From Acidobacteriota bacterium (lineage in GTDB: Bacteria; Acidobacteriota; Thermoanaerobaculia; Thermoanaerobaculales; Sulfomarinibacteraceae): a stretch of 44,711 nucleotides of DNA. Under the pieces are notes generated by a model, which worked only from the letters and a program-made list of their open reading frames with translations, made no database searches and was not told where the DNA came from. Positions 3,445 through 27,946 of the stretch are shown here, piece by piece; position 1 is the stretch's first letter, and each line of letters opens with the position of its first letter. The translations under genes and the position numbers were made by a program. The DNA lies in contig JAHECW010000024.1 in assembly GCA_024641545.1 (NCBI GenBank), positions 1 through 44,711 on the forward strand, read 5' to 3'.

Positions 3445-3464
3445 TCAGGCGCCGGGGCCGACAT

Positions 3465-3738: not shown

Positions 3739-4818
3739 TTACTTGAGGTCGGGATACAACTCCTGCATCACCAGTTTTGGTTTTCGGTCCACCGTAAAGA
3801 GGCCAAAGTGCTTTTCCGCACCGTCGGGATTGTTCGGGTCACCCTTCCAGTCTTCATCGAACGCCTCGAACCAGAACGTGGTGACATTCAGTTTTGCGGC
3901 CCATTCGGTGACTTCCTTGAAGTACCTGCGCTGATTCTCCTCGCTCGCTCGATCACCGAACTCGCTCGCAGTCGTGGCCCACCCGACCTCACCGATGATG
4001 AGCTCGGCGCCGGGCAGGGCCTTCCGAACCGTCTCGATGTTCCCGGCGGTGAACGCCAGGGCCTCATCCACGCCCCTCTCGGCCCAGATCGGATACGAGT
4101 GAACCGTGACGAAATCGAGTTCCCTGGCCAGGGGTTTCCCGTTCTCGGCCCACCACGCGAAGTTCTCGGCTACGGTGACGCGCTGCGAGATGGACCTCTT
4201 CACCTTCCTGACATAGGAGATGACTTTGTCAACGTCGACCTTGTGATCAGTCCAGGACACGAGCGCCTCATTTCCCACACTGACCGCGATCACGACGTCC
4301 CGGAACTCGTTGGCCAGCTCGATGGCTCTCGCGACCTCCTGCTTGTTCTCCTTCTTGTTGTTCTCCAAGGTTGCGTCCGGAATCGGCTCGTCGAGCCATG
4401 GGCATGCTCGGTGGTTGCTGATCTCGGCACTCAACCAGACACCGAGCATGACCCTCAGCGGGAGTTGGTTTTCCCGGATCAACTTCAACACGGTTCTCGC
4501 GTTTTCCCTGGAATCATACAGACGGATGAGACCGAAGTTCAGGTCGCGGGTCAGGATCTTCAGGTCGTCGAGAATCTCCTCATCGGAAGGGTTGGCCGCG
4601 CCATCACCACGGTCGGGGTGCTGGCCGGCACGATAACCCGAGTATGCGACCGCGTACCTGGGCCTGATCTGGGCGTCGACGCCTTTCTCTTGAACCGCGT
4701 CGGGGACGGGATCGGCGGGCTGATCGGCCGCCAATGGTCCCGGAAAGGTCACCAGCAGGGCCACGGCCGCCATCGCTGCCAGCGCGGGTGTGATCGTGCT
4801 CTTGAACGTGTGAATCAT
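3739..4818 (-). CDS. GH17 family beta-1,3-glucanase-like secreted enzyme
   Basis: A 359-residue glycoside hydrolase of family 17 (clan GH-A TIM barrel), a family of endo-beta-1,3-glucanases and glucosyltransferases. The acid/base is probably E184 in SVGNEALV and the nucleophile E277 in IIGEVGWAT; both motifs are characteristic. Strand motifs GLIRLYDS, VMLGVWL and VTVHSYPIW fit the barrel. The N-terminus, with TFKSTITPALAAMAAVALL, is a signal peptide ending near AAD. The ATG at 4818 is preferred over the one at 4824 because gaggag is then six bases upstream instead of directly adjacent. It is divergent from the TonB-dependent receptor and shares an upstream region carrying LacI-type operators, which fits a role in the same beta-1,3-glucan system. 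Confidence 0.9.
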   Translation of the reverse strand: MIHTFKSTITPALAAMAAVALLVTFPGPLAADQPADPVPDAVQEKGVDAQIRPRYAVAYSGYRAGQHPDRGDGAANPSDEEILDDLKILTRDLNFGLIRLYDSRENARTVLKLIRENQLPLRVMLGVWLSAEISNHRACPWLDEPIPDATLENNKKENKQEVARAIELANEFRDVVIAVSVGNEALVSWTDHKVDVDKVISYVRKVKRSISQRVTVAENFAWWAENGKPLARELDFVTVHSYPIWAERGVDEALAFTAGNIETVRKALPGAELIIGEVGWATTASEFGDRASEENQRRYFKEVTEWAAKLNVTTFWFEAFDEDWKGDPNNPDGAEKHFGLFTVDRKPKLVMQELYPDLK

Positions 4819-5030
4819 GGTCATCTCCTCTTCGATACGGTCATCCATGAAGGCGGCTCGCCGAGCATGACGGGCCCCGGGCTCAGGCGCCCCCTCTTCG
4901 TGAACGACGTTACGAGCAACTCCTTGAAATTCCCACCCGCTGCGCATCCCCGGCCGGAACCGTGAAACTGCTTCCTGCATGGCGTCGGGAAAAGGGCTGA
5001 GCCGGAGCATGAAAAGATGATGACAGAGGG

Positions 5031-5046
5031 TTGACAGCGTTGTCAA
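5031..5046. promoter_or_regulatory. LacI-type operator between GH17 and the receptor
   Basis: TTGACAGCGTTGTCAA is a near-perfect palindrome around a central CG, the usual architecture of LacI-family operators. It lies in the divergent region between the GH17 gene and the TonB receptor. A related site occurs before the locus's own lacI gene (26754-26769), which suggests control by that regulator. Confidence 0.65.
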
Positions 5047-5058
5047 TCTTCGCATATT
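5031..5058 (+). promoter_or_regulatory. Candidate sigma70-type promoter for the receptor
   Basis: A consensus -35 TTGACA (5031-5036), a 16-base spacer and CATATT (5053-5058) as -10 form a reasonable promoter toward the receptor. The operator fully covers the -35, so bound repressor would block it. On the opposite strand another TTGACA (5046-5041), with catcat 18 bases further on, could serve GH17. The resulting leader to the receptor start would be about 400 bases, which is long. Confidence 0.4.
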
Positions 5059-5321
5059 GTCGCTCGAGAGGCGCCATCTCACCTTTCGAGACGGGAGCAT
5101 CGCTTGCCGGAAGTCATCAGGCATCGGAACGAAACCGGGCGGCGCCGAGAGGCCTGCGTTTCGAACTCCCGCCAGATACATATCGTGAACATTTTCAAAA
5201 ACTTATCCACCTTTCCAGACGAGACGGCCATCGCCGGTATCACCCCCGGAACGGGCGCGACACCGCGACCGGGCCGCTCTCCTACAGCAGCCTCGAACGG
5301 CCGCGATCGTGCAGCCGATCG

Positions 5322-5337: not shown

Positions 5338-5472
5338 AGATGTCCGTGCGGCCAGCCCGCCAGTCGATGCCGGTTGAGGGCGCAGCCCGAAGCCGTACAC
5401 GCTGGTATAGATCAACCGACCCTTGCCAAGCTTCGGGTAGCAGGCTTGGCGTTCGAGACGGAGGGCGAATCG

Positions 5473-8377: not shown

Positions 8378-8399
8378 CTCGACAGTCCTCTCTGAGCGG

Positions 8400-9638: not shown

Positions 9639-10028
9639 AGGGACCTCCCTTTCTTATCGATGTATACCATAAAACCGATATTGGATTCAGCGAACATCAC
9701 AAACGCCGGCTCCCCACCCCGGGTCTCTCCGTCGGAAAACCACCCAATGGGGACCGCCGAGGATCCATACCGCGAGCGCAATCAAACCTTCGGTGCGTTG
9801 AACACCGACAGCGGTCAAACGACCACGCGGACCTCTGTATTTCATGTTGAACGCTCGGCTGTGCGGTTCAGAGTCGTTCACCCTTTCGATCAAAAAGCGC
9901 GTGTGCACGCACACGCGATGTGCAACAGGCGAAACTTGGACCGGAAGCTCTCATCGAGTGCTTCCAAGAATGATCGGCGGCGGTTGGGTTGAAAAACCTC
10001 GACCCCGCCCCGAACAGAGGAGGTTCCC
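9639..10028. other. Divergent upstream region before the main operon
   Basis: This 390-base stretch must hold promoters for the minus-strand binding protein and for the plus-strand operon. A perfect hairpin cgcgtgtg/cacacgcg with loop cacg lies at 9898-9917. An AT-richer patch (9655-9685) contains tgtatacc, a possible -10 on the minus strand. No clear match to the TTGACAGCG-type operator was found here. No gene is supported. Confidence 0.45.
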
Positions 10029-10782: not shown

Positions 10783-12549
10783 ATGAGCGGTTGGAATACG
10801 CAACCTCCGAAGAAGTCGCGGCTCGTCAACGGCTCCACCGATCGGGCAAGTGGAGGCCTGGGCCTCGTCGTGCTCGTTCTGTGGGCCGTTGGGTCGGCGG
10901 CGGCTTCGACGACGCCTGATTGTCCACTAGGCGAGTCCTGCGCTCGACACTCACGATCGGCGGACACGAGCGTCGTGTCGACTTCAGGATGGCACCTATT
11001 CGTGAACGACCAACGATTCATCATCAAGGGTGTCTGCTACAACCCGGTGCCCGTCGGAAGCACACTGCGAAGCTGGGACACTCTCGATGAGGACATCCTT
11101 CTGATGCAGGGAACGGGGATCAACACCATTCGCACGTACTCTCCCATCGAAGAAGCCTGGGTCTTGGACCGGCTCGCCTCGGCAGGCATCAAGGTCATCA
11201 TGGGGTTCACCGCGTACTCGGGCGCCTACAACATCAACAACGGCGGGTATCTCACCTATGTCGACTCCTTCAAAGACCACGATGCGATCCTGATGTGGGA
11301 GCTCGGCAACGAGTACAACTACCACCCGGAATGGTTCGGTGGTGACGTCAACAACTGGTACGCGATGCTCGAGAACGCGGCGCAGCAGATCCATCTGATC
11401 GACCCGGGCCATCCGGTTTCGACGGCGCACGGCGAGCTTCCATCGGTGACGACGCTGGCCATGGTGCCGAGCGTCGATGTCTGGGGAATGAACGTCTACC
11501 GTTGGGATTTCTCGCACCACGCAATCACCGATTTCGCGGCGATCAGCGACAAGCCCTGCTATCTCTCCGAGACCGGCGGCGACAGCTACAACAGTGCTCC
11601 GTCACATCCGACCTACAGCTTCGGCGCCAACGAACAGATGCAGGCAGATGCGACCCAGGCCCTGCTGAACGGCGTCTTCGCCAATCTCGATGTCGGCTCC
11701 GGGGTGGCCTTGTTCGAGTTCTCCGACGAGTGGTGGAAAGCGGGCAACCCCGCCACCCAGGATCCCGGCGGAGCGGCCCCCTACAGCAGCGGGGTGCCGT
11801 ACGACGGTGCCCCGAACGAAGAGTACTGGGGAATTGTCGACGTGTTTCGGACCGAGAAACTCGCCTCCGGCATCGTCAACGCGGTCTACACCGGACCCGC
11901 CTGCCTGGTTTCCGCCCACGCCGGCTCCGATCAGTTTCTCCCCGTGGGATCGACGGGGACGACTCTCGACGGTTCCTCGAGCAGTCACTCGGGCGCTCTG
12001 GCCTTTGAATGGAGTCAATCCGGCGGTCCGACGGCGGTGACCTTCGCCGACCCCACTTCCATGCATCCGAGCGTCAGCGACCTCAATGCCGGTGTCTACA
12101 CCTTCAGTCTGACCGTGACCGGCGACTGCGGCACCTCCATCGACACCGTTCAGGTGACCGTGAACCAAACCGCCAACACCCCCCCAGTGGCCGACGCGGG
12201 CTCTGACCGGTGCTTGCCGTCGGGAACGGGCGCAACAAGGCTGAACGGATCTGCGAGCCACGATCCCGACGGCGGACCGGCGGCGTTGACCTTTGTCTGG
12301 GGACAGACGGCCGGGCCGGTCTTGAACATCTCCAGCTCGACGGCGGAGTCCCCGATGGTTTCCGGAATTGCCGACGGCGAATCGTACACCTTCGAGCTCG
12401 TGGTCTTCGACGGATTGGACACCAGCGCCCCGTCGAGCGTGACGATCTTGGTCGACCCCCTGTTCGTCGACGACTTCGAATCCGGCGACCTTTCCGGCTG
12501 GTCCGGAATCGGGCTCGACGGTGGTCCCGTGAGGAGGAGGGACTCATGA
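10783..12549 (+). CDS. Clan GH-A glycosidase with PKD-like modules and DGFESG-type tail
   Basis: A 588-residue exported enzyme. The TIM-barrel part (about 70-365) starts WHLFVNDQRFIIKGVCYNP and has the acid/base motif MWELGNEYN and a probable nucleophile glutamate in CYLSETGGDS, the two-glutamate layout of clan GH-A (GH2/GH5/GH72/GH158-like). Two PKD/Ig-like modules follow (SAHAGSDQFLPVGSTGTTLDG; VADAGSDRCLPSGTG). It ends with FVDDFESGDLSGWSG, a variant of the tail seen in five other proteins here. The exact family is unresolved; neighbours point to beta-1,3-glucan. The upstream ribosome-binding site is weak and the N-terminal region before the hydrophobic stretch is long, so the start could be further in. 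Its stop overlaps the next start in ATGA. Confidence 0.8.
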   Translation: MSGWNTQPPKKSRLVNGSTDRASGGLGLVVLVLWAVGSAAASTTPDCPLGESCARHSRSADTSVVSTSGWHLFVNDQRFIIKGVCYNPVPVGSTLRSWDTLDEDILLMQGTGINTIRTYSPIEEAWVLDRLASAGIKVIMGFTAYSGAYNINNGGYLTYVDSFKDHDAILMWELGNEYNYHPEWFGGDVNNWYAMLENAAQQIHLIDPGHPVSTAHGELPSVTTLAMVPSVDVWGMNVYRWDFSHHAITDFAAISDKPCYLSETGGDSYNSAPSHPTYSFGANEQMQADATQALLNGVFANLDVGSGVALFEFSDEWWKAGNPATQDPGGAAPYSSGVPYDGAPNEEYWGIVDVFRTEKLASGIVNAVYTGPACLVSAHAGSDQFLPVGSTGTTLDGSSSSHSGALAFEWSQSGGPTAVTFADPTSMHPSVSDLNAGVYTFSLTVTGDCGTSIDTVQVTVNQTANTPPVADAGSDRCLPSGTGATRLNGSASHDPDGGPAALTFVWGQTAGPVLNISSSTAESPMVSGIADGESYTFELVVFDGLDTSAPSSVTILVDPLFVDDFESGDLSGWSGIGLDGGPVRRRDS

Positions 12550-14652: not shown

Positions 14653-14748
14653 GGCGCGAACACGACCGCTTCGTCCAACCGAAGGCGGCAGATCCCGATC
14701 GCCCCACGGCAGATCGTGTCGACATTGACTGAAGGAGAGGCGATCGCG

Positions 14749-16362
14749 ATGGGTGTCCGCTATGCGACAAGCTCGAGGCCGAAACGGCGACCGCGGTCGC
14801 CCGCCGTCGCCGTCTGCCTCGCAGCGGTCATCTTCTCAGCCGCAGGCTGGGCTCACGGTGAGCTGGTGAACCCCGGGTTCGAGGACGCCGGAGGGTCCCT
14901 TTACGGGTGGCAGACCTTCGGAAACACCGCGGGAAACGTCACGGCCGATTCGAAAACACCCCACTCCGGCACGCACGTCGCGAACCTCTCGGGGCCTTCG
15001 AACAGCGGCGGGAGCACCTCGTACTCCGGCATCCTCCAGGGGCTCGAAACCGCGGCGGGCCAGCTGTGGACCGCATCCGCATACTTCCGCCACAACTCTC
15101 CTTCGCGCCTCGAAGACGAGAATCAACTGGTGATGAAGGTGGAGTTCTACCGACGGTTCGGCGGATATTACGGCACCGGCGACTTCATCAGCGAGACCGA
15201 GATCACCGCACTTGACGTCGACTCCCCCACCAACGTGTGGCGACAAATCGCCTTCAGCGCACTGGCCCCAGCGGACGCGGTCGAAGCCCGCATCGCGTTC
15301 GTCTTCGTGCAGCACGGCTCCGAGGCCGGAAACGCACTCATCGACGATGTCTCATTCACAGCGAGCGGCGTCGATCTCGGCCCGCCCGAAGGTCTGGCGT
15401 GGAAGCTGATCTGGCAGGACGAGTTCGACGGCAACACGGTCGACCCGAACAACTGGATAGTACTGGACGCCCACCTGATCAAGAACGGAGAGCTCCAGTA
15501 CTACGATCCGGAAGATGTGTATCTGGAAAACGGCTGCCTTGTGCTGCGCAGCAGGCAGCACGATCCGCCGGTGATCCGTCCCCATCCCGACGGTCACTCC
15601 GCCGAGTTCGAATTCACGTCGGGACTGGTCGAGGGCCCTGGGCTGTTCTCGCACACCTACGGATGGATCGAGATTCGCGCCAAGCTGCCTTCGACTCAAG
15701 GTATCTGGCCGGCTCACTGGATGCTTGGTGAGAACTTTCCCGGGGTCGGCTGGCCCCGCTGCGGCGAGGTCGACATCATGGAGCACCTCGGACACGATGT
15801 CGACACCGTCTACTTCACCCGCCATTGGGGAGATCCCTACACTCACCAGGGCACCAGCTACTCCGGCCCGGACTTTTCCCGGGACTTCCACACCTTCGCC
15901 CTTCACTGGACCGCGGAGGAGATGTTCTGGTACGTCGACGGTTTTCTCCGCTACCAGACCGACATTTCGGACGCCGGTGAGATCTACCAGCGGCCGTTCT
16001 ACCTGATCCTCAACACGGCGGTCGGGGGTTATTGGCCCGGACCTCCCGATCACACCACGGTTTTCCCTCAGTATCACGAGATCGATTACGTCCGCTGGTG
16101 GGTCGAAGGCGACCCCGGCGACTTCGACGCGGACGGTGACGTCGATGTCGCCGACCAGGCCGCATTCGCCGACTGTTACGGCGGTGACGGCAGCCACTGG
16201 AGCAACCCTGCCTGTCGATTCTTCGATCTCGACGCGGATGATGACGTCGACTGCGACGACTGGGATCAGTTTACCGACACGTGGACCGGCTCTCCCCCGA
16301 GCTCTCCGTTTCTCTCGCAGTGCCGGTCGCTGGAAGTCCGGCAGATCGGAGGCCGCCATTAG
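14749..16362 (+). CDS. GH16 laminarinase with CBM4/9-like and dockerin-like modules
   Basis: A 537-residue exported endo-beta-1,3(4)-glucanase of family 16. Order: signal peptide (VAVCLAAVIFSAAGWAHG); CBM4/9-like module (about 38-205: ELVNPGFEDAGGSLYGWQT to NALIDDVSF); GH16 catalytic domain (about 215-455: WKLIWQDEFDGNTVDPNNW; ExDxxE site E340-V-D342-I-M-E345 in CGEVDIMEHLG; HWMLGENFP; LNTAVGGYWPG); then a dockerin-like region with two calcium-loop repeats (FDADGDVDVADQAAFADC and FDLDADDDVDCDDWDQF). ATG at 14749 is preferred because gaaggagagg precedes it. The enzyme should cut laminarin-type glucans outside the cell. A dockerin in a genome with no visible cohesin is notable. Confidence 0.93.
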   Translation: MGVRYATSSRPKRRPRSPAVAVCLAAVIFSAAGWAHGELVNPGFEDAGGSLYGWQTFGNTAGNVTADSKTPHSGTHVANLSGPSNSGGSTSYSGILQGLETAAGQLWTASAYFRHNSPSRLEDENQLVMKVEFYRRFGGYYGTGDFISETEITALDVDSPTNVWRQIAFSALAPADAVEARIAFVFVQHGSEAGNALIDDVSFTASGVDLGPPEGLAWKLIWQDEFDGNTVDPNNWIVLDAHLIKNGELQYYDPEDVYLENGCLVLRSRQHDPPVIRPHPDGHSAEFEFTSGLVEGPGLFSHTYGWIEIRAKLPSTQGIWPAHWMLGENFPGVGWPRCGEVDIMEHLGHDVDTVYFTRHWGDPYTHQGTSYSGPDFSRDFHTFALHWTAEEMFWYVDGFLRYQTDISDAGEIYQRPFYLILNTAVGGYWPGPPDHTTVFPQYHEIDYVRWWVEGDPGDFDADGDVDVADQAAFADCYGGDGSHWSNPACRFFDLDADDDVDCDDWDQFTDTWTGSPPSSPFLSQCRSLEVRQIGGRH

Positions 16363-16513: not shown

Positions 16514-17836
16514 ATGATGGAACAGATTCGTCGATTCCTGTCAGTGACGGGGTGCATCTTCCTGTGTTCGGCCTCTTGGATGGCATGCTCGTCCGACCGG
16601 TCCGGAACCCGCGTCATCAACGACGGCGGCGCCTACCTCCTGGTCCGCAACGGCCAACCCTATTTCATCCGAGGGGTCGGCGGGCAGACCCAGCTCGACA
16701 GGCTGGCCGCAGCCGGCGGGAACTCCATCCGCACATGGGGTGCGGACCACCTGGACGAAATCCTCGATGAGGCCCATCGGCACGGGCTGACCGTGTGCGC
16801 GGGCCTCTGGTTGGGGCACGAGCGCCACGGCTTCGACTATCACGACCGGTCGGCGGTGCTGGAGCAGCTGAAGGGGTTGCTGGAGACGGTACGGCGCCAC
16901 AAGGACCATCCTGCGGTGCTGATGTGGGGCATCGGAAACGAGATGGAGGGCGACGGCGGCAACCCGGCAATCTGGCGGGCCGTTGAAGAGATCGCCCGGG
17001 AGATCAAGCGCATCGACCCCGACCACCCCACCATGACGGTGATCGCTGAACTGGGAGACGACAAGGTCCAGAGCATCGAGCGGCTCTGTCCCTCCATCGA
17101 CATCATCGGCGTGAACTCCTACGGCGGAATCACGACCATGGGTGCGAGATACCGCGCCGCCGGTGGGAGCAAACCTTATGTGGTCACCGAGCTGGGGCCG
17201 CTCGGGCCCTGGGAGGTCGGGAGGACGCCATGGGGGTCGCCGATCGAGATGACCAGCACGGAGAAAGGCCTGTGGTACGCGGACGGCTACCGGAAAGCGG
17301 TCACCGAACAGGACGATCTGTGCCTCGGGTCGTACGCGTTCTACTGGGGGCACAAGCAGGAGACGACCGCGACATGGTTCGGCATGCTGTTGCCGGACGG
17401 ATCGAGGCTCGCCGCCGCAGACGCGCTCTCCGAGGCATGGACCGGGACGCCGGGGGGGAACCTGTGTCCCCGCATTCTGTCGCTCGAAGCGGATTCGACC
17501 TCCCAGCTTCGGCCCGGTCAGACCGTGAAGGCGAGGCTTTCAGCGACCGACCCGGAGAACGACGAGCTGACATTCCGCTGGGTGTTGCGATCCGATGCGG
17601 GCACGATCGGTACCGGGGGTGAATTCCAGACGACCGAGGCGTCGCACGACGCCGCGGTGTCTGCGTCCGGCCCGTCCGCGACCGTCACCATGCCGGACAC
17701 CGCCGGCGGATACCGTCTGTTCGCCTATGTCGTCGACGACGCCGGCGGCGCGGCGGTGGCCAATCTGCCGTTGCACGTCGAAGGACCGGCGACAGCGCAC
17801 GAGCCACCGGATCGCGCCGTCCCCGAGTCGAGGTGA
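16514..17836 (+). CDS. Clan GH-A glycosidase, probable lipoprotein
   Basis: A 440-residue enzyme. The N-terminus has a hydrophobic segment ending WMACSS, a poor but possible lipobox with the acylated Cys near residue 25. The barrel (about 35-310) begins NGQPYFIRGVGGQTQLDRLAAAGGN and carries the acid/base in LMWGIGNEMEG and the nucleophile in YVVTELGPLGPW, the clan GH-A arrangement of GH2/GH158-like enzymes. An Ig/PKD-like module (about 330-425: RPGQTVKARLSATDPENDELTFRW) follows. gaggtga lies directly before two consecutive ATGs, so the start could be 16514 or 16517. The substrate is probably a beta-1,3-gluco-oligosaccharide, judged from neighbours. The 150-base gap upstream includes a weak LacI-like half-site near 16447. 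Confidence 0.78.
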   Translation: MMEQIRRFLSVTGCIFLCSASWMACSSDRSGTRVINDGGAYLLVRNGQPYFIRGVGGQTQLDRLAAAGGNSIRTWGADHLDEILDEAHRHGLTVCAGLWLGHERHGFDYHDRSAVLEQLKGLLETVRRHKDHPAVLMWGIGNEMEGDGGNPAIWRAVEEIAREIKRIDPDHPTMTVIAELGDDKVQSIERLCPSIDIIGVNSYGGITTMGARYRAAGGSKPYVVTELGPLGPWEVGRTPWGSPIEMTSTEKGLWYADGYRKAVTEQDDLCLGSYAFYWGHKQETTATWFGMLLPDGSRLAAADALSEAWTGTPGGNLCPRILSLEADSTSQLRPGQTVKARLSATDPENDELTFRWVLRSDAGTIGTGGEFQTTEASHDAAVSASGPSATVTMPDTAGGYRLFAYVVDDAGGAAVANLPLHVEGPATAHEPPDRAVPESR

Positions 17837-17843
17837 GAATCCG

Positions 17844-20800
17844 ATGAACAACCTGAACGAAGCTACAGTCTGCCGAGGAGCATCGCCGATCGCGACGTCG
17901 GACGCCGAGGTCCGGGGCCGGTGGGTGACGCTCGGGGCGGAGAAGTTCTACCGGATCGCCAACGCGGATCGCATGCCGCCCTTCCTGATGAGCCTTGTCA
18001 GCGATTCGGATCATTGGATGTTCGTATCGAGCAACGGTGGGCTGACCGCCGGCCGCGGGGACTCCGACAACGCGCTGTTCCCCTACTGCACCGAGGACAA
18101 GATCGAGGACAACGCGACGAACACCGGTTCACGGACGATCGTCTGGGCGGAACGGAGCGGAAAGCTGTACGTTTGGGAGCCGTTCAGCAAGGCCGGCCGG
18201 GGGCTCTATGACACCACGACGAACCTCTACAAGAACGTGGTGGGCAACAAGCTCGTCTTCGAGGAGGTCAATCACGATCTCGGCCTGAAGTTCCGATCGC
18301 TGTGGACGATGTCCGACAGGTTCGGGTTCGTCAAGCAGTCGGAGATCGCCAACACATCTGCCGTGCCGGTGTCGTTGAGCGTGCTCGACGGCATCGAGAA
18401 TATCCTGCCGTGGGGTGCGACCGAGGAGTTCCAGAGCCGCTTCTCCTGCCTTGGCGACGCGTACAAGCAGAACGAGCTCGACAAGGAGACCGGCCTCGGC
18501 ATCTACGCCTTCACCTCGATCCCCGGGGACAGCCCGGAACCGCACGAGGCGCTGCGGGCGACGGTCTGCTGGTCGACCTGCCCGGCCCGGGTCCCTCGCC
18601 TGGTCTCATCGGCCCAGTTGGACGTCTTTCGACACGGTGAAACGATCCGGCCCGAGACGCGAGTCTGCGGGCGCCGGGGTGCGTACTTCGTCCACAACAC
18701 GATCACCATCGCGGCCCGGGAGCATGCGCGGTGGCAGATCGTCGCGGATGTGTCGCGCGGTCATGTCGAGATCGCCGAGTTGAGGCGGCTGTTGAGGAGC
18801 AGGTCGGACCTCGGTCGGATGGTCGAGGCGGACGTTGCCGAGGGTTCCCGGAATCTCGAGGCGATCGTCGCCTCCGCCGACGGGCTCCAGCTCACGGGCG
18901 ACTCCCTCGGCTCCGCCCATCACTTCTCGAACGTGCTGTTCAACGTGATGCGGGGCGGCACCTTCGAGTCGTCGTACCGGATACCGGTCGACGACCTGAA
19001 CGACCTGATCCGGTCCTTCAACCGGAAGGTCCACGCTCGCCATTGCGAGTTCCTGGATTCGCTGGGCCACGAGATCGGCCTGCCCGAGCTCCTCGAACGG
19101 GTACGCGATCAGAACGACCCCCACCTGACTCGACTCGTCCACGAGTACCTGCCGTTGTCGTTCAGTCGGCGCCACGGGGATCCGAGCAGGCCCTGGAACA
19201 GGTTCTCCATCGAGGTCAAAGGTCGAAACGGCCGCAGGCTCCTCGGTTACGAGGGGAACTGGCGCGACATCTTCCAGAACTGGGAAGCGCTGTGCCACTC
19301 GTTTCCTGAGTTCGTCGAGAACGTCATCTGCAAGTTCGTGAACACCTCCACGGCCGACGGGTACAACCCGTATCGAATCACCAAGAAGGGATACGAGTGG
19401 GAGGTTCCGAGCCCGGACGAGCCGTGGTCCAACATCGGATACTGGGGAGACCACCAGCTGATCTATCTGCTGAAGCTCCTCGAGATGTCACGCGACTACC
19501 ACCCGAAGCGGCTTCACCGCCTGCTGACCGACGACATCTTCGTCTACGCGGACGTGCCCTACGACATCACGCCGTACGCGGACCTGCTGCGGGATCCCAA
19601 ACGGTCGATCGTCTACAACGTCGGCCGGGAGGCGGCGATCTCGGAGCGCGAGGCATCGATGGGGTTGGACGGTCGGTACGTCACCGACCGGTCGGGGGAC
19701 ATCTGTCGCGCCAATCTCGCGGAGAAGCTGCTGGTCCCCTTGCTGGCCAAGGTCTCGAACTTCATCCCGGGCGCCGGGTTCTGGATGAACACCCAGCGTC
19801 CGGAATGGAACGACGCCAACAACGCCCTGGCCGGTTACGGGGTGTCGATGGTCACCCTGTACTACGCCCGGCGGTATGTATCCTTCTGCCTCGACCTGTT
19901 CACCGGCGCCGAGCTCGACGAGGTTCGGCTGAACGAGGAGGTCGGGGATTGGTTCGACGCCGTCAGGACCGCTCTCGACGACACCCGCCCCATTCTCGCG
20001 GGGGACGACATCGACGACGCGGACAGGAGGCGCCTCCTCGACCGTCTCGGAGCGGCGGCCGAGGCACACCGGAAGAAGATCTACGAAAGGGGCTTCCGGG
20101 GGCGCCGCTCGGTCGTGGCCGTCCGCGACCTGGTGATCTTTTTCGAACTCCTCCAACGGTTCTTCGACCAAACCATCGGGCTCAACCGGCGCGCCGACGG
20201 TCTTTACCACGCCTACAACGTCATGACCGCGACGTCTGACGGCATCTCCGTCGGGCGCCTGCAGGAGATGCTCGAGGGCCAGGTGGCGGTGCTGAGCGCC
20301 GGCTGCCTCGAGGGCGAAGAGTGCGTGTCGGTGCTCGATGGGCTCCGCGGTAGCGGGATGTACCGGGCGGACCAGCACTCCTACACCCTCTACCCGGACA
20401 GGAGACTGCCGAGCTTCGCCGAGAAGAACACCGTGCCGCCGAAGCAGGCCGCACGATCCGAACTGATCGGCAGGCTGCTCGCGGACGGCAACACCGACCT
20501 GATCGAAGACGACGTCGACGGCGGGCTGCACTTCAACAGCAGGTTCCAGAACATCCGTGACGTCTCGGCGGCCATCGAGGGACTCGCCGAGGCGGGCTAT
20601 GCCGAGCTGGTTCGGAAGGACGGAGCGCTGATCGCCGAGATCTTCGAGTCCGTCTTCCACCACCGTGAGTTCACGGGTCGATCGGGAACCTTCTACGGCT
20701 ACGAGGGACTGGGTTGCATCTACTGGCACATGGTGAGCAAGCTCCTGCTGGCGGTGCACGAGTGCTGCCTGGCGGCGAGCACGGTCGACGACCTGGCGCG

Positions 20801-21377
20801 CGAGCGGCTCGTGACCTCTTACTACGACCTCCGCGCGGGGCTTGGATTCAACAAGTCGCCGGGCATCCACGGGGCATTCCCGACCGACCCCTACTCCCAC
20901 ACCCCGGGCGATGGCGGCGCCAGGCAGCCCGGCATGACCGGACAGGTCAAGGAAGAGATCATCACCCGGTGGGCCGAGCTCGGGCTGTTCGTGCGCGACG
21001 GGCAGATCTGCTTCGATTCGGTGCTTTTGCGCAGAGACGAGTTTCTGCCGCGCCCGGAGGCCTTCGAGTACGTCGATGTCGCGGGCGAACGCCGGACGAT
21101 GGGGCTCGAGCGGGGGACGCTCGCGTTCACCAAGTGCCAGACCGTGTTCTTGGTGCACCCGGCGGCCGACGAGCGGGTGGTGGTCCGATTCTCCGACGGC
21201 ACGGAGACGACCGTACTCGGCAACCGCCTCGGCCCGGAGCTCAGCAGCGAGATTTTCATGCGCACCGGAAAGGTCGCCCGCGTCGATGTCTTCGTGAACG
21301 CCGAACGGACGGTCGGTACGACGCCGGCGCCCCCGCCCGACTCAGGGCGTCCTGTCGCCGGAGGAGACGGCCCGTGA
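17844..21377 (+). CDS. Large cytoplasmic beta-1,3-glucan phosphorylase candidate (GH149/GH161/GH94-like)
   Basis: A 1177-residue protein without a signal peptide. Size and motifs fit the large inverting phosphorylases of GH149 (or related GH161), distant relatives of GH94: GRWVTLGAEKFYRI near the start, FSRRHGDPSRPWNRFSI, LGYEGNWRDIFQNWEAL, NIGYWGDHQLIYLLKLLE (Asp536 in WGDHQ) and QRPEWNDANNALAG (Asp657 in EWND, matching the GH94 DWND region that holds the acid). Such enzymes release glucose 1-phosphate from beta-1,3-oligoglucans with phosphate. The ATG at 17844 has gaggtgag upstream and starts seven bases after the previous stop. It overlaps the symporter gene by GTGA. The family is named from memory; which Asp is catalytic is inference. 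Confidence 0.78.
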   Translation: MNNLNEATVCRGASPIATSDAEVRGRWVTLGAEKFYRIANADRMPPFLMSLVSDSDHWMFVSSNGGLTAGRGDSDNALFPYCTEDKIEDNATNTGSRTIVWAERSGKLYVWEPFSKAGRGLYDTTTNLYKNVVGNKLVFEEVNHDLGLKFRSLWTMSDRFGFVKQSEIANTSAVPVSLSVLDGIENILPWGATEEFQSRFSCLGDAYKQNELDKETGLGIYAFTSIPGDSPEPHEALRATVCWSTCPARVPRLVSSAQLDVFRHGETIRPETRVCGRRGAYFVHNTITIAAREHARWQIVADVSRGHVEIAELRRLLRSRSDLGRMVEADVAEGSRNLEAIVASADGLQLTGDSLGSAHHFSNVLFNVMRGGTFESSYRIPVDDLNDLIRSFNRKVHARHCEFLDSLGHEIGLPELLERVRDQNDPHLTRLVHEYLPLSFSRRHGDPSRPWNRFSIEVKGRNGRRLLGYEGNWRDIFQNWEALCHSFPEFVENVICKFVNTSTADGYNPYRITKKGYEWEVPSPDEPWSNIGYWGDHQLIYLLKLLEMSRDYHPKRLHRLLTDDIFVYADVPYDITPYADLLRDPKRSIVYNVGREAAISEREASMGLDGRYVTDRSGDICRANLAEKLLVPLLAKVSNFIPGAGFWMNTQRPEWNDANNALAGYGVSMVTLYYARRYVSFCLDLFTGAELDEVRLNEEVGDWFDAVRTALDDTRPILAGDDIDDADRRRLLDRLGAAAEAHRKKIYERGFRGRRSVVAVRDLVIFFELLQRFFDQTIGLNRRADGLYHAYNVMTATSDGISVGRLQEMLEGQVAVLSAGCLEGEECVSVLDGLRGSGMYRADQHSYTLYPDRRLPSFAEKNTVPPKQAARSELIGRLLADGNTDLIEDDVDGGLHFNSRFQNIRDVSAAIEGLAEAGYAELVRKDGALIAEIFESVFHHREFTGRSGTFYGYEGLGCIYWHMVSKLLLAVHECCLAASTVDDLARERLVTSYYDLRAGLGFNKSPGIHGAFPTDPYSHTPGDGGARQPGMTGQVKEEIITRWAELGLFVRDGQICFDSVLLRRDEFLPRPEAFEYVDVAGERRTMGLERGTLAFTKCQTVFLVHPAADERVVVRFSDGTETTVLGNRLGPELSSEIFMRTGKVARVDVFVNAERTVGTTPAPPPDSGRPVAGGDGP

Positions 21378-22921
21378 ACGCAAAGGACCTCGCCCAGCAC
21401 TCGCCGCGAGCGTTCGTGCCCTTCGGCCAGAAAGTGGCCTACGGCATCGGGATGCTCGGTAATCAAATGTTCCCCGCCGCCCTCGGCGTGTTCATGGTGG
21501 TGCTCGTCAAGGGACTCGGGTTCAACCCCCTCCTGTGGGGGATCCTGTTCTTCGTGCCGCGACTCGTCGATGCGATCACCGATCCGGTCATGGGGTTCAT
21601 CTCGGACAACACCAGGAGTCGCTGGGGCCGACGACGCCCGTACATCTTCGTCGGCGCGATCATCACCGGCATCACCTTCGTCGTCATGTGGCAGCTGTAT
21701 CCCGAAAACGGAATCACTTACAACTTCTCCTACTTCCTCGGTTTGTCCCTGGTCTTCTACCTCGGTCTGACGATCTTCGCCACGCCGTACGTCGCCATGG
21801 GCTACGAGATGAGCAGCGATTTTCACGAGCGCACGCGGCTGATGGCGGTCGCGCAGTGGATCGGCCAGTGGGCCTGGGTCATCTGCCCCTGGTTCTGGGT
21901 CCTGATCTACGACCCGGACCTGTACGGCTCGGCGGCCGCCGGCGCTCGGAGCCTGGCCGTCTGGGTCGGGCTTTCCTGCATGGGCCTCGCCCTCGTTCCC
22001 GCGATCTTCTGCCGCAGCCGCCCCACCAACGACGCCGAGCATCTGCAGGAGCTGAGCCGACAGAATCTCCGCGCGGCCACCGGCCGGTTCGTCAACGGGA
22101 TTCGCGACACCATTCGGTGCGAGCCGTTTCGAAAGCTGTGTCTGGCGACGTTCCTCGTGTTCAACTCGTTCAACACGGTCGCGGCGTTTTCTTTCTTCAT
22201 CATCGTCTACTACCTGTTCGGCGGCGACGCGGGCGCCGCGGGCCACTGGCCGGCCTGGTTCGGCACGATCGGCGCGCTCTGCACCTGCTTCCTGGTGATC
22301 CCCGCGATCACCTTCATGTCGCAGCGACTCGGGAAGAAACCGACATTCGTTCTCTCCCAGCTGGTGTCGGTCGCCGGCTACGCCCTGTTCTGGTTCTGCT
22401 TCCAACCGGGCCGACCGATGCTGATCCTGGTCCCTCTTCCGCTTTTTGCATTCGGCATCGGCGGTTTGTTTACCATCATGACCTCGATGACCGCCGACGT
22501 GTGCGACCTTGACGAGCTCAACACCGGCGCAAGGCGTGAGGGCGCATTCGCCGCCATCTATTGGTGGATGGTGAAGTTCGGGACGGCCTTCGCCGGCGGC
22601 ATGAGCGGGCTGATCATGAGCGTCGTCGGTTTCGTACCGGACGCCCCGGTGCAGGTTGACGGCGCCGTGGCGGGCATCCGGGCCGCGTACAGCGTCGTGC
22701 CCATTGTCGGCACCCTGCTCGCCATCGCGGTCATGCGCGGTTACGACATCACCGAACAGCGGGCGCACGAGATTCGAGCGGAGCTGGAACGACGGCGAGC
22801 GGCCGCGTCGACAGAAACCTGCAACCCAGATCAGGGATCGCCCGGTGGTCCGGTCCCGGCAGCGGTCCCGGCCCACGAGGGAGATGCGGTCTCCGCGGCC
22901 CGGCCCGCAGGGACCGACTGA
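21374..22921 (+). CDS. GPH-family (MelB-like) sugar:cation symporter 1
   Basis: A 515-residue, 12-helix transporter of the glycoside-pentoside-hexuronide family within MFS. It starts with FGQKVAYGIGMLGNQMF, and the conserved loop PRLVDAITDPVMGFISDNT followed by RSRWGRRRPY is the family signature with cation-site aspartates. TADVCDLDELNTGARREGAF is the second signature region. The GTG start overlaps the phosphorylase stop (GTGA), and gaggag precedes it. The long hydrophilic tail (about 60 residues) is unusual. It should carry the oligosaccharide or glucose from periplasm to cytoplasm next to the phosphorylase. Helix 2-3 loop and tail differ strongly from the following symporter, so the two are not recent duplicates. 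Confidence 0.88.
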   Translation: MNAKDLAQHSPRAFVPFGQKVAYGIGMLGNQMFPAALGVFMVVLVKGLGFNPLLWGILFFVPRLVDAITDPVMGFISDNTRSRWGRRRPYIFVGAIITGITFVVMWQLYPENGITYNFSYFLGLSLVFYLGLTIFATPYVAMGYEMSSDFHERTRLMAVAQWIGQWAWVICPWFWVLIYDPDLYGSAAAGARSLAVWVGLSCMGLALVPAIFCRSRPTNDAEHLQELSRQNLRAATGRFVNGIRDTIRCEPFRKLCLATFLVFNSFNTVAAFSFFIIVYYLFGGDAGAAGHWPAWFGTIGALCTCFLVIPAITFMSQRLGKKPTFVLSQLVSVAGYALFWFCFQPGRPMLILVPLPLFAFGIGGLFTIMTSMTADVCDLDELNTGARREGAFAAIYWWMVKFGTAFAGGMSGLIMSVVGFVPDAPVQVDGAVAGIRAAYSVVPIVGTLLAIAVMRGYDITEQRAHEIRAELERRRAAASTETCNPDQGSPGGPVPAAVPAHEGDAVSAARPAGTD

Positions 22922-22945: not shown

Positions 22946-24343
22946 ATGACGAAGGCAGTCATCACTCTTTCAGCCCGAGAGAAGCTGGGCTACGGACTCG
23001 GCGACACGGCGTCCCACTTCGTGTGGGACATGGTCGGGTTCTGGATCCTGATCTTCTACACCGACACCTTCGGCATCTCGGCCGCGGCCGCCGGAACGAT
23101 CATGCTCGTCGCCCGCCTGTGGGACATGGCCAGTGATCCGCTCATGGGCATCATCGCCGACCGCACCACGACCCGGTGGGGTAAGTTCCGACCGTACCTG
23201 CTGTGGGTCGCGTTGCCCTACGCCGTCCTCGCGGTGATGGCCTTCTCGACCCCGGCGTTCGGACCCACCGGCAAGGTCGTGTATGCCGGAGTCACCTACC
23301 TGCTGCTGATGACCGCCTACACGGCCATCAACCTGCCGTACTCGTCGCTCGGCGCGGTGATGACCGCCGACGGGTACGAGCGCGCGAGCCTGAACACCTA
23401 TCGCTTCATCTGCGCCTTCGCCGGGCAGCTCGTCGTGACCGGACTGGCGCTCACCCTGGCCCGGTACCTCGGTGGCGGGAATGACGCCAGGGGCTACCAG
23501 CTGACCCTGGTCGTTTTCGGGGCTGTCAGCTTCGTGCTCTTCATGATCGCCTTCGCCTCGACCACGGAGAGGATCCAGCCTCCCGCCACGCAACGGCCCT
23601 CCCTCAGGAAAGACCTCGAGATTCTGTTCGCCAACACCCCGTGGATCGTTCTCTCCGTGGTCGGGCTGATCTCGTTCATCATGTTCGCGATGCAGAACGC
23701 ATCCGTGGCCTACTACTTCAAGTACTACGTGGGAGATGCGGAGAACGTGCAGCTCTTCAACGTCATCGGCAGCGTCGCCCTGATCGCGGGGCTGCCCTTC
23801 TCCAAGCCGCTGTCAAAGCGTTTCGGCAAGCGAAACGTGTTCATCGGCAGCTCGTTGCTTTCCGGGATCGCCTTCGGCCTGATCGTCCTGCCAGGTGCAC
23901 GGGACCTCTCCACCATCTACCTCCTCAATATCCTCGGCAAGATCACCTACGCGCCTGCGGTCCCGCTGCTCTGGACCATGCTGGCCGACACCGCTGACTA
24001 CTCGGAGTGGACGACCGGCAGGCGGGCGACGGGCCTTTTCTTCTCGGCCTCGACCTTTGCCCAGAAAGCGGGCTGGGGAATCGGCGGCGCGCTCGCCGGA
24101 TGGACTCTGGCGGCGTTCGGCTATGCCGAGCAGAGCGCGGTGCAGAGCGCCGGAACCGTCACCGGCATCCGTCTGATGGTGTCGGTCTTCCCGGGGGTGC
24201 TGTCGATCCTGTGTGCGGCGCTGCTGGTGTTCTACCGGGTCGACGCCTCGACCTGCCTGCGGATGCAGGAGGAGCTGGAGGCGCGGCGGGCCGACGCGGC
24301 GGACCGGCCATCGACACCTGATTCCGCTGGAGGGACCCGATGA
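22946..24343 (+). CDS. GPH-family (MelB-like) sugar:cation symporter 2
   Basis: A 465-residue transporter of the same family as the gene before it: LSAREKLGYGLGDTASHF, then ARLWDMASDPLMGIIADRT with TTRWGKFRPY, and MLADTADYSEWTTGRRATG. Both family signatures are intact. It starts 24 bases after the first symporter and overlaps the GH3 gene by ATGA. The two symporters probably differ in substrate (for example laminaribiose or longer oligomers versus glucose). That division of labour is inference. Confidence 0.9.
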   Translation: MTKAVITLSAREKLGYGLGDTASHFVWDMVGFWILIFYTDTFGISAAAAGTIMLVARLWDMASDPLMGIIADRTTTRWGKFRPYLLWVALPYAVLAVMAFSTPAFGPTGKVVYAGVTYLLLMTAYTAINLPYSSLGAVMTADGYERASLNTYRFICAFAGQLVVTGLALTLARYLGGGNDARGYQLTLVVFGAVSFVLFMIAFASTTERIQPPATQRPSLRKDLEILFANTPWIVLSVVGLISFIMFAMQNASVAYYFKYYVGDAENVQLFNVIGSVALIAGLPFSKPLSKRFGKRNVFIGSSLLSGIAFGLIVLPGARDLSTIYLLNILGKITYAPAVPLLWTMLADTADYSEWTTGRRATGLFFSASTFAQKAGWGIGGALAGWTLAAFGYAEQSAVQSAGTVTGIRLMVSVFPGVLSILCAALLVFYRVDASTCLRMQEELEARRADAADRPSTPDSAGGTR

Positions 24344-26643
24344 AGACGACCGCGATCGCTGTTCTTGCGGCCGTCATGGTCGCCCTGATTTCCGCGTGCG
24401 GCGAGACCCAGCCGAACGACCCGGCGAGTCGGGTCGAGGCCTTGCTCGGGCAGATGACGCTCGAGGAGAAGATCGGGCAGCTCAACCAGTACAGCAACAC
24501 GTTCGACATCACAGGTCCTCCTCCCGAGGATCAAGTGGGCCGGGTTCGCCTCGAGAGAATCCGGAACGGGCTCGTCGGATCCATGCTCAACCTCGCCGGT
24601 GTCGAGGAGACCCGGCGGGCGCAGGAGCAGGCGGTCGAACACAGCCGGCTCGGCATCCCGATGATCTTCGGGCTCGACGTCGTCCACGGGTACCGGACGA
24701 TGTTCCCAATTCCGCTCGGCGAAGCCGCGAGCTGGGACCTCGAGGCGATCGAGAGATCGGCCCGGATCGCCGCTACCGAGGCGGCGGCCGCCGGTATTCA
24801 CTGGACCTTCGCGCCGGTCGTCGACATCGCCCACGACGCCCGCTGGGGACGCATCATGGAAGGCGCCGGCGAGGACCCGTTCCTCGCCTCGCGGGTGGCT
24901 GAGGCCCGCGTACGCGGTTTTCAGGGCCGGGATCTCGCGTCCATCGACACCGTCGCCGCCTGCGCCAAGCACTTCGCCGCCTACGGATTCGCCGAGGCCG
25001 GCCGCGAATACAACACCGTCGAGATCTCCGAAAACACCCTGCAGAACGCGGTCCTGCCGCCGTTCAAGGCAGCGGTGGACGCCGGCGTGGCCACGATCAT
25101 GAACGCCTTCAACGAGATCGGCGGCATCCCCGCGACCGCCAACTCCCACCTCCAGCGCGAGATTCTGAAAGGAGAGTGGGGCTTCAAGGGCTTCGTCGTG
25201 TCGGACTGGGATTCCATCGGCGAGCTGACCGTCCACGGCGTCGCCGCCGACCTGCGCGGGGCGGCCGCCATGGCGATCGCCGCGGGCAGCGACATGGACA
25301 TGCAGGGCGAGGCCTACATCAGCCACCTCGCCGACCTCGTCCGGTCGGGCGCGGTTTCGGAGGACCTGATCGACGATGCTGTGCGCAGAATCCTGAGAGT
25401 CAAGTTCCAGCTCGGCCTGTTCGACGATCCGTACCGCTACTGCGACGCCACCCGAGAGCAACGCGTCATCCTGAGTCGGGAGCACCTCGACGCCGCCCGT
25501 GATGTGGCGCGGAGGTCGATCGTGCTGCTCAAGAACGACAACGACCTGCTGCCCCTCGACGCGACCCGGGGCTCGATCGCCGTCATCGGCGCCCTCGCGG
25601 CGGACAAGGACACACCGCTCGGCAGCTGGCGCGCGCGGGCTCTCCCGGGCTCGGCGGTCTCACTCCACGAAGGAATCCGAGCCGCCGTCGGCGATGACGT
25701 CGAGATCACCTACGCCGAGGGGGCGCCTCTGACGGTCGGTGAGAGGAGCTTCCTCCATGAGCTGACGTTCAACACCGGGGACACGTCCGGCTTCGCGGCG
25801 GCGGTCGCCGCCGCCGAGGCTGCCGACACGGTGGTGATCGCGTTGGGTGAGGAGGCGTACCAGTCCGGTGAGGCCCGCTCGCAGGTCGACATCGGTCTCA
25901 GGGGCGTGCAGCAGCAGCTCCTCGAGCAGGTATACGCCGCCAACCCGAACACGGTCGTGGTGCTCATGAACGGCCGGCCGCTGGCGCTCGACCGGATGGC
26001 GGCGAACGCGCCGGCGATCCTCGAGACCTGGCACCTCGGATCCGAGGCCGGACACGCCATCGCCGACGTCCTGTTCGGCAATTACAACCCGTCGGGCCGG
26101 CTGCCGGTGTCGTTCCCCTATCACGTCGGTCAGGAGCCCCTGTACTACAACGCGAAGGGCACCGGCCGTCCCCGGTCCCGGGGAGATGTCTTCTGGTCGC
26201 ACTACACCGACGCCCCGAACCGGGCCCTGTTCCCGTTCGGCTTCGGCCTCTCCTACACCACCTTCGAGTACTCCGCCGTCGAGCTGAGCGCCGACGAACT
26301 CGCGATCGGCGAGGAGCTGACGGTCGAGGTGACGGTCGAAAACACGGGCGAGCGGTCCGGCACCGAGGTCGTGCAGCTGTACGTCCGCGATTTGGTCGGC
26401 AGCGTCACCCGTCCGGTGAAGGAGCTCAAAGGCTTCAGGTTGATCGAGTTGGAGCCGGGGTCCGAACAGAGGGTCCGCTTCATTCTCACGGCCGACGACC
26501 TCGCGTTCTTCACGGCCCGGGGACGGTGGGAGGCCGAACAAGGTGAGTTCGCGGTCTCCATCGGCCCCAGCTCGGAAGAACTGACCGAAAAGCGGTTCGT
26601 CCTCACCTCCGGCTGCGAGCCGTCCGCGCAGAACGTCCGATGA
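24340..26643 (+). CDS. GH3 beta-glucosidase lipoprotein
   Basis: A 767-residue family 3 glycoside hydrolase. A lipoprotein signal ends at I17-S-A-C20. The GH3 N-terminal barrel (about 30-350) has GLDVVHGYRTMFPIPLGEAASWD, CAKHF (K210-H211) and the nucleophile D289 in GFVVSDWDS. The C-terminal domain (about 385-625) includes SIVLLKNDNDLLPL, VVIALGEEAYQSGEARS, WHLGSEAGHAIADVLFGNYNPSG and FPFGFGLSYTTFEYS. A fibronectin III-like domain (about 640-755) closes the protein. Full length for the bglX-type subgroup. It probably sits in the periplasm and removes glucose from the non-reducing end of beta-glucan oligosaccharides. The start overlaps the second symporter's stop (ATGA), so it is in the operon. 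Confidence 0.94.
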   Translation: MKTTAIAVLAAVMVALISACGETQPNDPASRVEALLGQMTLEEKIGQLNQYSNTFDITGPPPEDQVGRVRLERIRNGLVGSMLNLAGVEETRRAQEQAVEHSRLGIPMIFGLDVVHGYRTMFPIPLGEAASWDLEAIERSARIAATEAAAAGIHWTFAPVVDIAHDARWGRIMEGAGEDPFLASRVAEARVRGFQGRDLASIDTVAACAKHFAAYGFAEAGREYNTVEISENTLQNAVLPPFKAAVDAGVATIMNAFNEIGGIPATANSHLQREILKGEWGFKGFVVSDWDSIGELTVHGVAADLRGAAAMAIAAGSDMDMQGEAYISHLADLVRSGAVSEDLIDDAVRRILRVKFQLGLFDDPYRYCDATREQRVILSREHLDAARDVARRSIVLLKNDNDLLPLDATRGSIAVIGALAADKDTPLGSWRARALPGSAVSLHEGIRAAVGDDVEITYAEGAPLTVGERSFLHELTFNTGDTSGFAAAVAAAEAADTVVIALGEEAYQSGEARSQVDIGLRGVQQQLLEQVYAANPNTVVVLMNGRPLALDRMAANAPAILETWHLGSEAGHAIADVLFGNYNPSGRLPVSFPYHVGQEPLYYNAKGTGRPRSRGDVFWSHYTDAPNRALFPFGFGLSYTTFEYSAVELSADELAIGEELTVEVTVENTGERSGTEVVQLYVRDLVGSVTRPVKELKGFRLIELEPGSEQRVRFILTADDLAFFTARGRWEAEQGEFAVSIGPSSEELTEKRFVLTSGCEPSAQNVR

Positions 26644-26753
26644 GAATGAAGAGGACCGGTGTGGGGCGTCCTTCCATGTGGTCCGCTGCTCGATCGAACA
26701 GAGCCCGCCCGGATGGCCCTGTCAGCGCTACCGAAGGCGACAGCCAAGTCTGG

Positions 26754-26769
26754 TTTGCAGCGTTGTCAG
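26754..26769. promoter_or_regulatory. LacI-type operator before the lacI gene
   Basis: TTTGCAGCGTTGTCAG matches the operator at 5031 (TTGACAGCGTTGTCAA) at 13 of 16 positions, including GCGTTGTCA. It lies 140 bp before the regulator's start codon, in a gap of 265 bases. A weaker match (ctgtcagcgctaccga) is at 26719-26734. Autoregulation is the simplest reading. Confidence 0.5.
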
Positions 26770-26908
26770 CCGTCTGCCAGAATGTCCGTCGCGAGCCTTG
26801 GTCGCAGACCCCTGGCCCGAGCGAGAAACCTGTGAGCATTCAAGAAAGTGGCACCGGCGGCACCACCCGTCGATACCCGGACACCGTCGGCTGGGGGAGC
26901 TGTTGAAC

Positions 26909-27946
26909 ATGGCGAGCGCGACCAAGAAACGACCGACCATCAATGACGTGGCCCACCTCGCCGGGGTTTCGATCAAGACCGTTTCGAGAGTCTTCAACGA
27001 CGAACCCAATGTGCGCCCGGCGACTCGGGATCGCGTCGTGGACGCCGCCGGCGAGTTGGGGTACCGCCCCAACCTCTCGGCGCGCCGCCTGGCGGCCAAT
27101 CGGACCTTTGTCATCGGCATGCTCTACGATAATCCGAAAGCCCCTGACTACGTGGCCGATGTTCAGTACGGCGCTCTCCGCGTCTGCCGAACACGGGGTT
27201 ACGACCTGCTCATTCACCCCTGCGACGCACAATCGCCGACCTTGGTTGACGAGATCCTCGATCTCCACCACCGTGCCACGGTCGACGGCCTCGTCGTTCT
27301 GCAGCCCGTTTCGGATCAGAGGAAACTCAACCAGGCGCTGCTCGATCAGGGAATCGTCAGCGTCAGGGTGTCACAAAGACCCTTTGCCGGGCTGCCGAGG
27401 ATTTCGGTTTGCGACCAGGAAGCCGCCGACGAGATGACCGAGCACCTCATCGAGCTCGGCCACCGCCGTATCGGCTTCATCATGGGGCATCCCGATCACG
27501 GATCGAGCCACGACCGCCTAGCGGGCTACACGAGCGCCCTCGAGCGGCACGGCATCGCCTACGATGGGGCGCTGGTCGAGCACGGCCTTTACGACTACGA
27601 GTCGGGCTACGCCTGCGCCGGCCGCCTGCTCGCCCTCAGCCCCAGACCGTCGGCGATCTTCGCGAGCAACGACCACATGGCGATGGCGACCCTGACGGCG
27701 GCTCACGAGCTGCGGCTCGAGATCCCGCGCGACCTTTCCGTGGCAGGTTTCGACGACACCTCTTTCGCCGGCTTCTCCTGGCCGCCGTTGACCACGGTGC
27801 GCCAACCCGTCGTCGAGGTCGCGCAGCTGGCGACAGAGCTCCTTCTCGACCGCCTCCAGGATCGGGCGGAGGACACCTCTGATCACCGGCTGCGGGCGGA
27901 GATCGTGTACCGCGCCTCCACGGGCAAGACGTCGGAAATCGCATAG
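26909..27946 (+). CDS. LacI-family transcriptional regulator
   Basis: A 345-residue regulator. The LacI helix-turn-helix and hinge lie at residues about 9-60 (PTINDVAHLAGVSIKTVSRV, then YRPNLSARRLAANRTFVIG). The ligand-binding domain of the periplasmic-binding-protein type follows, with TVDGLVVLQPVS, HRRIGFIMGHPDHGSS, RPSAIFASNDHMAMA, SVAGFDDTSFAGFSWPPLTT and VRQPVVEVAQLA. It starts nine bases after ggggag. It probably represses the glucan genes until an oligosaccharide or glucose derivative is bound; the operators at 5031, 5322 and 26754 are the candidate targets. The 265-base gap after the GH3 gene suggests its own promoter. Confidence 0.95.
   Translation: MASATKKRPTINDVAHLAGVSIKTVSRVFNDEPNVRPATRDRVVDAAGELGYRPNLSARRLAANRTFVIGMLYDNPKAPDYVADVQYGALRVCRTRGYDLLIHPCDAQSPTLVDEILDLHHRATVDGLVVLQPVSDQRKLNQALLDQGIVSVRVSQRPFAGLPRISVCDQEAADEMTEHLIELGHRRIGFIMGHPDHGSSHDRLAGYTSALERHGIAYDGALVEHGLYDYESGYACAGRLLALSPRPSAIFASNDHMAMATLTAAHELRLEIPRDLSVAGFDDTSFAGFSWPPLTTVRQPVVEVAQLATELLLDRLQDRAEDTSDHRLRAEIVYRASTGKTSEIA

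Follow-up and report, generated by a model that had tools for sequence, protein, structure and literature searches.

The 44,711-nucleotide stretch of acidobacterial DNA analysed here (contig JAHECW010000024.1 of assembly GCA_024641545.1; hereafter the window) carries on its forward strand a gene for a large phosphorylase that very probably functions as a cytoplasmic GH149 beta-1,3-glucan phosphorylase within a laminarin-type utilisation locus. Membership of family GH149 is secure on sequence and fold together, and the activity is predicted from that kinship. The gene and two codons of its motifs are:

17844..21377, forward strand: GH149 family protein of 1177 amino acids, predicted beta-1,3-glucan phosphorylase (NF058639, PDB 6hq6, predicted fold compared with 6hq8)
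19449..19451, forward strand: codon of Asp536 in the WGDHQ motif, invariant, equivalent to Asp532 of Pro_7066 and not the predicted acid
19812..19814, forward strand: codon of Asp657, the predicted catalytic acid, which lies in the WND motif and corresponds to Asp653 of Pro_7066

Against NF058639, the NCBIfam equivalog model for GH149, the protein scores 1554.4 bits (cut-off 1150) and aligns with model positions 3-1133 of 1134, and against the GH149 enzyme Pro_7066 (PDB 6hq6) it scores 1189 bits over residues 20-1151. The same model matches 40 of 40 aligned proteins, the window protein counted, so the phosphorylase gene is not a product of chance. By comparison, 9qqk (GH161) and 9h8v yield 61-62 bits in a patchy alignment. 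An AlphaFold2 model built from 40 sequences (pLDDT 85.7, pTM 0.88) superposes on 6hq8 over 1122 residues of 1138 with a Z score of 49.5 and a root-mean-square deviation of 2.9; GH161 chains follow at Z 33.8 and 29.5 and the GH94 laminaribiose phosphorylase 6gh3 at Z 28.1, with other GH94-type phosphorylases lower. Foldseek ranks these structural neighbours in the same order (TM 0.92/0.95 to 6hq6), and identity in the structural alignments is 44% for GH149, about 20% for GH161 and 12% for GH94. The two extra domains that flank the GH149 catalytic domain are covered as part of the full-length alignments.

An earlier, sequence-only reading of this DNA had placed the protein in the GH94/GH149/GH161 clan, which holds, and had called the choice between GH149 and GH161 open; it had named family-model comparison and structural superposition as checks and a best match to GH94 as one outcome that would speak against it. 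Both comparisons rank GH149 first, which settles that choice, and GH94 as best match was tested and not seen. It is scarcely credible that the protein is a GH161 phosphorylase, an enzyme acting on the same linkage that, in the available text of PMC6484121, needs chains with a degree of polymerisation of 3 or longer and does not phosphorolyse laminaribiose. The two families share a clan and overlap in function, GH161 chains come second in the structural ranking, and the sequences can be aligned in the WGDH and WND regions, but 62 bits stand against 1189 for GH149, 20% identity against 44%, and Z 33.8 against 49.5. A GH94 disaccharide phosphorylase (acting on cellobiose, chitobiose or laminaribiose) has the fold in common with the window protein, as 6gh3 illustrates. 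We rejected this assignment too as exceedingly improbable: Pfam returned zero families at E <= 1 for the protein although Glyco_hydro_94 (PF17167) is in Pfam, Z is at most 28.1 and identity 12%, and hhalign gave a probability of 0.2% between the GH149 alignment and the GH94 protein of the same genome, a figure that reflects low sequence similarity only, as the folds match.

The two motifs lie where the sequence-only reading had located them, WGDHQ at residues 534-538 (Asp536) and EWNDANN at residues 654-660 (Asp657). The available text of PMC6771811 gives W651-N652-D653 of Pro_7066 as the motif holding the predicted catalytic residue D653, assigns R470-D471 to the sugar phosphate and predicts that H959 serves the phosphate. 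Sequence alignments pair these with W655-N656-D657, R474-D475 and H962 of the window protein, each of which is invariant in all 92 rows of an alignment made of the window protein, 80 named loci and 11 same-phylum loci (L093-L096, which are fragments or split frames, were dropped). Asp657 is the single predicted catalytic acid. The sequence-only reading had put forward two candidates, and the other, Asp536, is likewise invariant (92/92) and aligns with the Asp of GH161 GYWSDH; mapping to Pro_7066, however, places it at Asp532, in a different motif from Asp653, and we rejected it as the general acid.

The phosphorylase frame opens with an ATG at 17844 and closes with a TGA at 21375-21377, giving 1177 residues and zero internal stops. 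There is an alternative in-frame ATG at 17595, but since the family-model match begins only 21 residues into the protein read from 17844 and the added stretch would overlap the upstream GH158 gene, 17844 is the likelier start; in this reading 7 bases separate the end of the GH158 gene from the phosphorylase ATG. No signal peptide is evident in an 11-residue hydropathy scan of the N-terminal 60 residues, in agreement with the earlier reading: the peak value is 0.92, against 2.27 for GH158, 3.04 for GH16 and 3.07 for GH3, the exported neighbours, while the GH17 frame as listed reaches 1.32. The overlap of the next gene with the phosphorylase stop, which the earlier reading had described as translational coupling, is confirmed as a 4-base GTGA junction in which the GTG start of symporter 1 (21374-21376) is preceded by GGAGGAG. 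Matching 4-base junctions (ATGA, ATGA and TTGA) occur in the related loci L003, L088 and L089, the three inspected (L093, which is not full length, was left out of this comparison). From these overlapping junctions we infer that the phosphorylase and symporter 1 are translationally coupled.

The neighbouring genes of the locus are:

3739..5181, reverse strand: GH17 family protein (PF00332, 34.8 bits, cut-off 28.2, residues 392-469 only)
5374..8259, forward strand: TonB-dependent outer-membrane receptor (PF00593, PF07715); the listed TTG start is probably too early
10783..12549, forward strand: TIM-barrel (clan GH-A-like) and PKD domains with a hydrophobic N-terminus (PF02836, PF22352; 9oro, 4.2e-8)
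13399-14652, forward strand: DUF11 protein whose C-terminus carries an IPTL-CTERM sorting motif (PF18203, TIGR04174)
14716..16362, forward strand: GH16 laminarinase-like endoglucanase (PF00722, 6.2e-20; PDB 3azx laminarinase, 3.5e-61)
16514..17836, forward strand: GH158 endo-beta-1,3-glucanase with a hydrophobic N-terminus (PDB 9oro, a GH158 protein, E 1e-107)
21374..22921, forward strand: GPH-type cation symporter 1 (PF13347, 2e-66)
22946..24343, forward strand: GPH-type cation symporter 2 (PF13347, 3.2e-105; TIGR00792, 395.6 bits, cut-off 231.35)
24340..26643, forward strand: GH3 beta-glucosidase of BglX type with a lipoprotein-like N-terminus (PF00933, PF01915, PF14310; NF011678, 772.9 bits, cut-off 666)
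26678..27946, forward strand: LacI-family regulator (PF00356, PF13377); the listed start is probably too early, the helix-turn-helix lying at residues 87-132

These genes place a GH16/GH17 endoglucanase, a GH3 glucosidase and oligosaccharide transport beside the phosphorylase, as expected of a laminarin utilisation locus. The GH3 gene begins within the last 4 bases of symporter 2. The TIM-barrel/PKD protein (10783-12549, forward strand) bears only a distant likeness to GH158 and GH2. The DUF11 gene lies between it and the GH16 gene, and similar proteins occur near GH149 in the same-phylum loci L125 and L126. In a tally of 90 GH149 loci (80 named and 10 longer same-phylum stretches, with flanks of differing length, so that absences are soft), a GPH-type protein was present in 73, but in only nine was one encoded on the GH149 strand at a distance of 300 bases or less, and GH17-like frames (E up to 1e-8) were present in 67. 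The forward frames 8172-9992 and 3463-4965 had zero Pfam matches and are probably not genes, and Rfam at gathering scores found nothing in the window. Elsewhere in the window, on the reverse strand, are a protein with an IgGFc_binding domain (37067-38443; PF17517, 7.5e-51) and a long Kelch-repeat protein in which Kelch_4 matches ten stretches (41790-44471).

The analysis itself shows the family, the conserved active-site residues, the fold of the predicted model, the gene order and the junctions; for the pathway we take activity, linkage, chain length, direction of reaction, location of the partner proteins and regulation by LacI from characterised relatives. Beta-1,3-glucan would be cut outside the cell by the exported GH16 and GH158 enzymes and probably by GH17, the oligosaccharides would cross the outer membrane through the TonB receptor, and, still outside the cytoplasm, GH3 would trim short chains. 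A GPH symporter would bring laminari-oligosaccharides into the cytoplasm, where GH149 and inorganic phosphate would convert them to glucose 1-phosphate and a shortened chain, with Asp657 as general acid and Arg474/Asp475 together with His962 serving the sugar-phosphate and phosphate site. In the GH94/GH149/GH161 clan, glucose is removed from the non-reducing end. The LacI-family protein would regulate the locus.

Several observations weigh against this assignment and pathway. Identity to Pro_7066 is only about 45%, and confidence in the predicted model drops below 50 at residues 945-958, 1023-1026 and 1028-1030, the first of these stretches lying close in sequence to H962. A Pfam search with 35 frames of the window did not find GH30, and the GH17 frame as listed is without a clear export signal. 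The phosphoglucomutase model TIGR01132 matches the genome weakly (165.6 and 30.4 bits, cut-off 778.05), and because these matches fall below the cut-off we can only infer that glucose 1-phosphate is converted to glucose 6-phosphate. Finally, the surface glucan site is partly retained, with T991/Y994/D995 in place of the E990/Y993/E994 that was seen with laminarihexaose in Pro_7066; the available text of PMC6771811 describes this site as not conserved family-wide, and in our 92 rows the three columns hold E in 38, Y in 66 and E in 66, respectively.

The altered surface site could be taken to indicate a GH149 enzyme of a divergent branch whose specificity, in acceptor or in chain-length range, has shifted. 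The window protein and its nearest relatives (L009 and L003) do form a branch separate from the Bacteroidota sequences, and Pro_7066 is, in the available text of PMC5827456, a metagenome sequence closest to Bacteroidetes. Those residues of the donor site and the catalytic centre that we checked are nevertheless invariant and the locus is laminarin-like, and we regard such a shift as unlikely. A decaying or non-functional copy is much harder to reconcile with the data and very improbable: the gene is present as a single copy (alongside one GH94) in its genome and is absent from the matches in 38 other relatives searched, but its 1177-residue frame is intact, its active-site residues are invariant, and its neighbours are intact with overlapping junctions. 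An active GH149 phosphorylase of laminarin-type oligosaccharides is the reading that we favour.

The host is most likely an acidobacterium, as the sequence-only reading supposed, judging by the placement of the named Acidobacteria gp1 row among same-phylum rows in an RpoB tree. Matches to RpoB were found in 17 of the 21 genomes searched, and the tree has 16 rows (L064 left out). In it the gp1 row pairs with a same-phylum row (support 98/97), and this pair lies inside a group of eight that holds the window's genome (88/89). The tree has weak points, in that the gp1 row is 44% filled and two same-phylum rows fall outside the group, in an open fork with Teredinibacter. A search of the window's own genome for 16S rRNA found none.

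Within the phylum, GH149 has matches in 14 of 396 sampled genomes, this one counted, and in 13 of 396 over the cut-off; it was not found in the 38 other close relatives searched (39 including the genome itself). The GH158 neighbour has a near-full-length match in its own genome only; in 4 of the 38 other relatives the matches are partial and weak, none above 22.2 bits. The idea that GH149 is new to Acidobacteriota was rejected on these matches and on two named acidobacterial metagenome-assembled genomes (MAGs), L014 and L017, that have it. The earlier proposal that the family would be broadened by a member from Acidobacteriota stands in part. It holds relative to the taxa named in the available text of the 2018 family paper (Proteobacteria, Bacteroidetes and Euglenophyceae; PMC5827456), but acidobacterial genomes in public collections already have GH149. 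No acidobacterial GH149 is reported in the available portions of two papers naming both GH149 and Acidobacteria; in the accessible text of PMC12175321, the genomes listed as having laminarin, alginate or alpha-glucan loci include one from Acidobacteriota (Thermoanaerobaculia). Two further occurrences deserve mention. A same-phylum GH149 (L093/L095; genome G343, contig 18, 5403-8713) is split into two frames covering model positions 7-852 and 869-1133, possibly through a frameshift, decay or an assembly error. A GH149 on a contig of a Brockarchaeota MAG (L006) is nested among acidobacterial sequences, possibly through mis-binning or transfer from Acidobacteriota.

The placement of the window GH149 in its family, set beside the best matches of its neighbours, suggests that the gene was laterally acquired and that the locus is of mixed origin. 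The window GH149 joins Gemmatimonadota L009 (support 97 in the 92-row tree and 100/98 in a 34-row tree) and Fibrobacterota L003 (100 and 100/100, respectively), and it stands apart from the other acidobacterial rows in both trees. Confirmed relatives number at least 589, of which the named loci are the best 80, so a closer acidobacterial relative was possibly missed. A single clade of 12 acidobacterial rows was rejected (p-AU 2.05e-8) with L006 left out; a first test, which counted this possibly mis-binned and nested row as an outsider, had given p 3.59e-65. A clade that joins the window to no other rows than f35, f77, gp1 and Bryobacterales was likewise rejected (p 1.44e-8), and a clade of the 11 acidobacterial rows without the window was not (p 0.449). 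For these tests 33-34 of the 92 rows were chosen, among them 9 of the 11 full-length same-phylum loci (L086 and L092 left out), and the group was named after sight of the first tree.

Among the loci compared, the TonB receptor and the LacI regulator match best, and strongly, only with same-phylum L125/L126 (1305 and 475 bits), symporter 2 has its best match in Bacteroidota L031 (726.5 bits), and GH3 is closest to Saprospiraceae L016 (861.3 bits, versus 644.3 for same-phylum L124). GH158 scores alike, at 278-311 bits, with its eight best loci. Symporter 1 matches best with Fibrobacterota L003 (740.6 bits; pairing support 87), and Saprospiraceae L081 comes close at 724.4 bits with the highest identity, 64%, which tells against transfer and leaves the symporter evidence weak. 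Two further points count against transfer: the window and L009 are both listed as having an unusual amino-acid make-up in the 92-row tree, which can pull rows together under LG+G4 models that assume one make-up, and the L009 gene is incomplete, covering query residues 118-1149. G+C content in 2-kb steps ranges from 59.5 to 72.0% without a visible jump where the locus begins or ends, so base composition does not point to recently acquired foreign DNA. A tentative and rather doubtful elaboration is a mosaic in which an acidobacterial LacI/TonB sensing-uptake module was joined by GH149, perhaps with symporter 1 as a cassette, from a Fibrobacterota/Gemmatimonadota-related lineage, Acidobacteriota having gained GH149 more than once.

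Taken together, both the enzyme family and the kind of locus found in the window are known already, and the understanding of the enzyme family is unchanged; the pattern suggestive of lateral transfer is the mildly unusual feature. In the available literature the characterised GH149 members are those of Euglena and one metagenome sequence, and to the family is now added an acidobacterial member with its full locus context, together with a hint that the gene for laminarin phosphorolysis moves between phyla. With GH161 (9gy9, 9qqk) the window protein shares the clan fold and motifs, at about 20% identity and with 62 bits for 9qqk. With Pro_7066 (6hq6, 6hq8) it shares a full-length match, the fold, the WND and RD motifs and the phosphate-site histidine; the two differ in about 45% identity, in the changes of E990 to T991 and E994 to D995, and in source, an acidobacterium as opposed to a metagenome sequence closest, in the available account, to Bacteroidetes. 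The same-phylum f37 loci L125 and L126 resemble the window in LacI (470 and 475 bits), TonB receptor (1305 and 1270 bits), GH149, symporter and DUF11 protein, but they carry a GH149 from a different branch of the family. As far as the available texts describe them, type II GH149 clusters of Gammaproteobacteria combine a TonB receptor, glycoside hydrolases, regulators and a PF13347 transporter (PMC5827456), and variant-1 beta-glucan loci combine GH149, GH17, GH16, GH158 and GH30 (PMC10877868). The window shares with these a TonB receptor, GH16, GH17, GH158 or GH3, a PF13347 transporter and a regulator. It differs from them in that neither a SusD-like protein nor GH30 was found among the 35 of its frames searched with Pfam, in having a LacI-family regulator, and in carrying two symporter genes in tandem.

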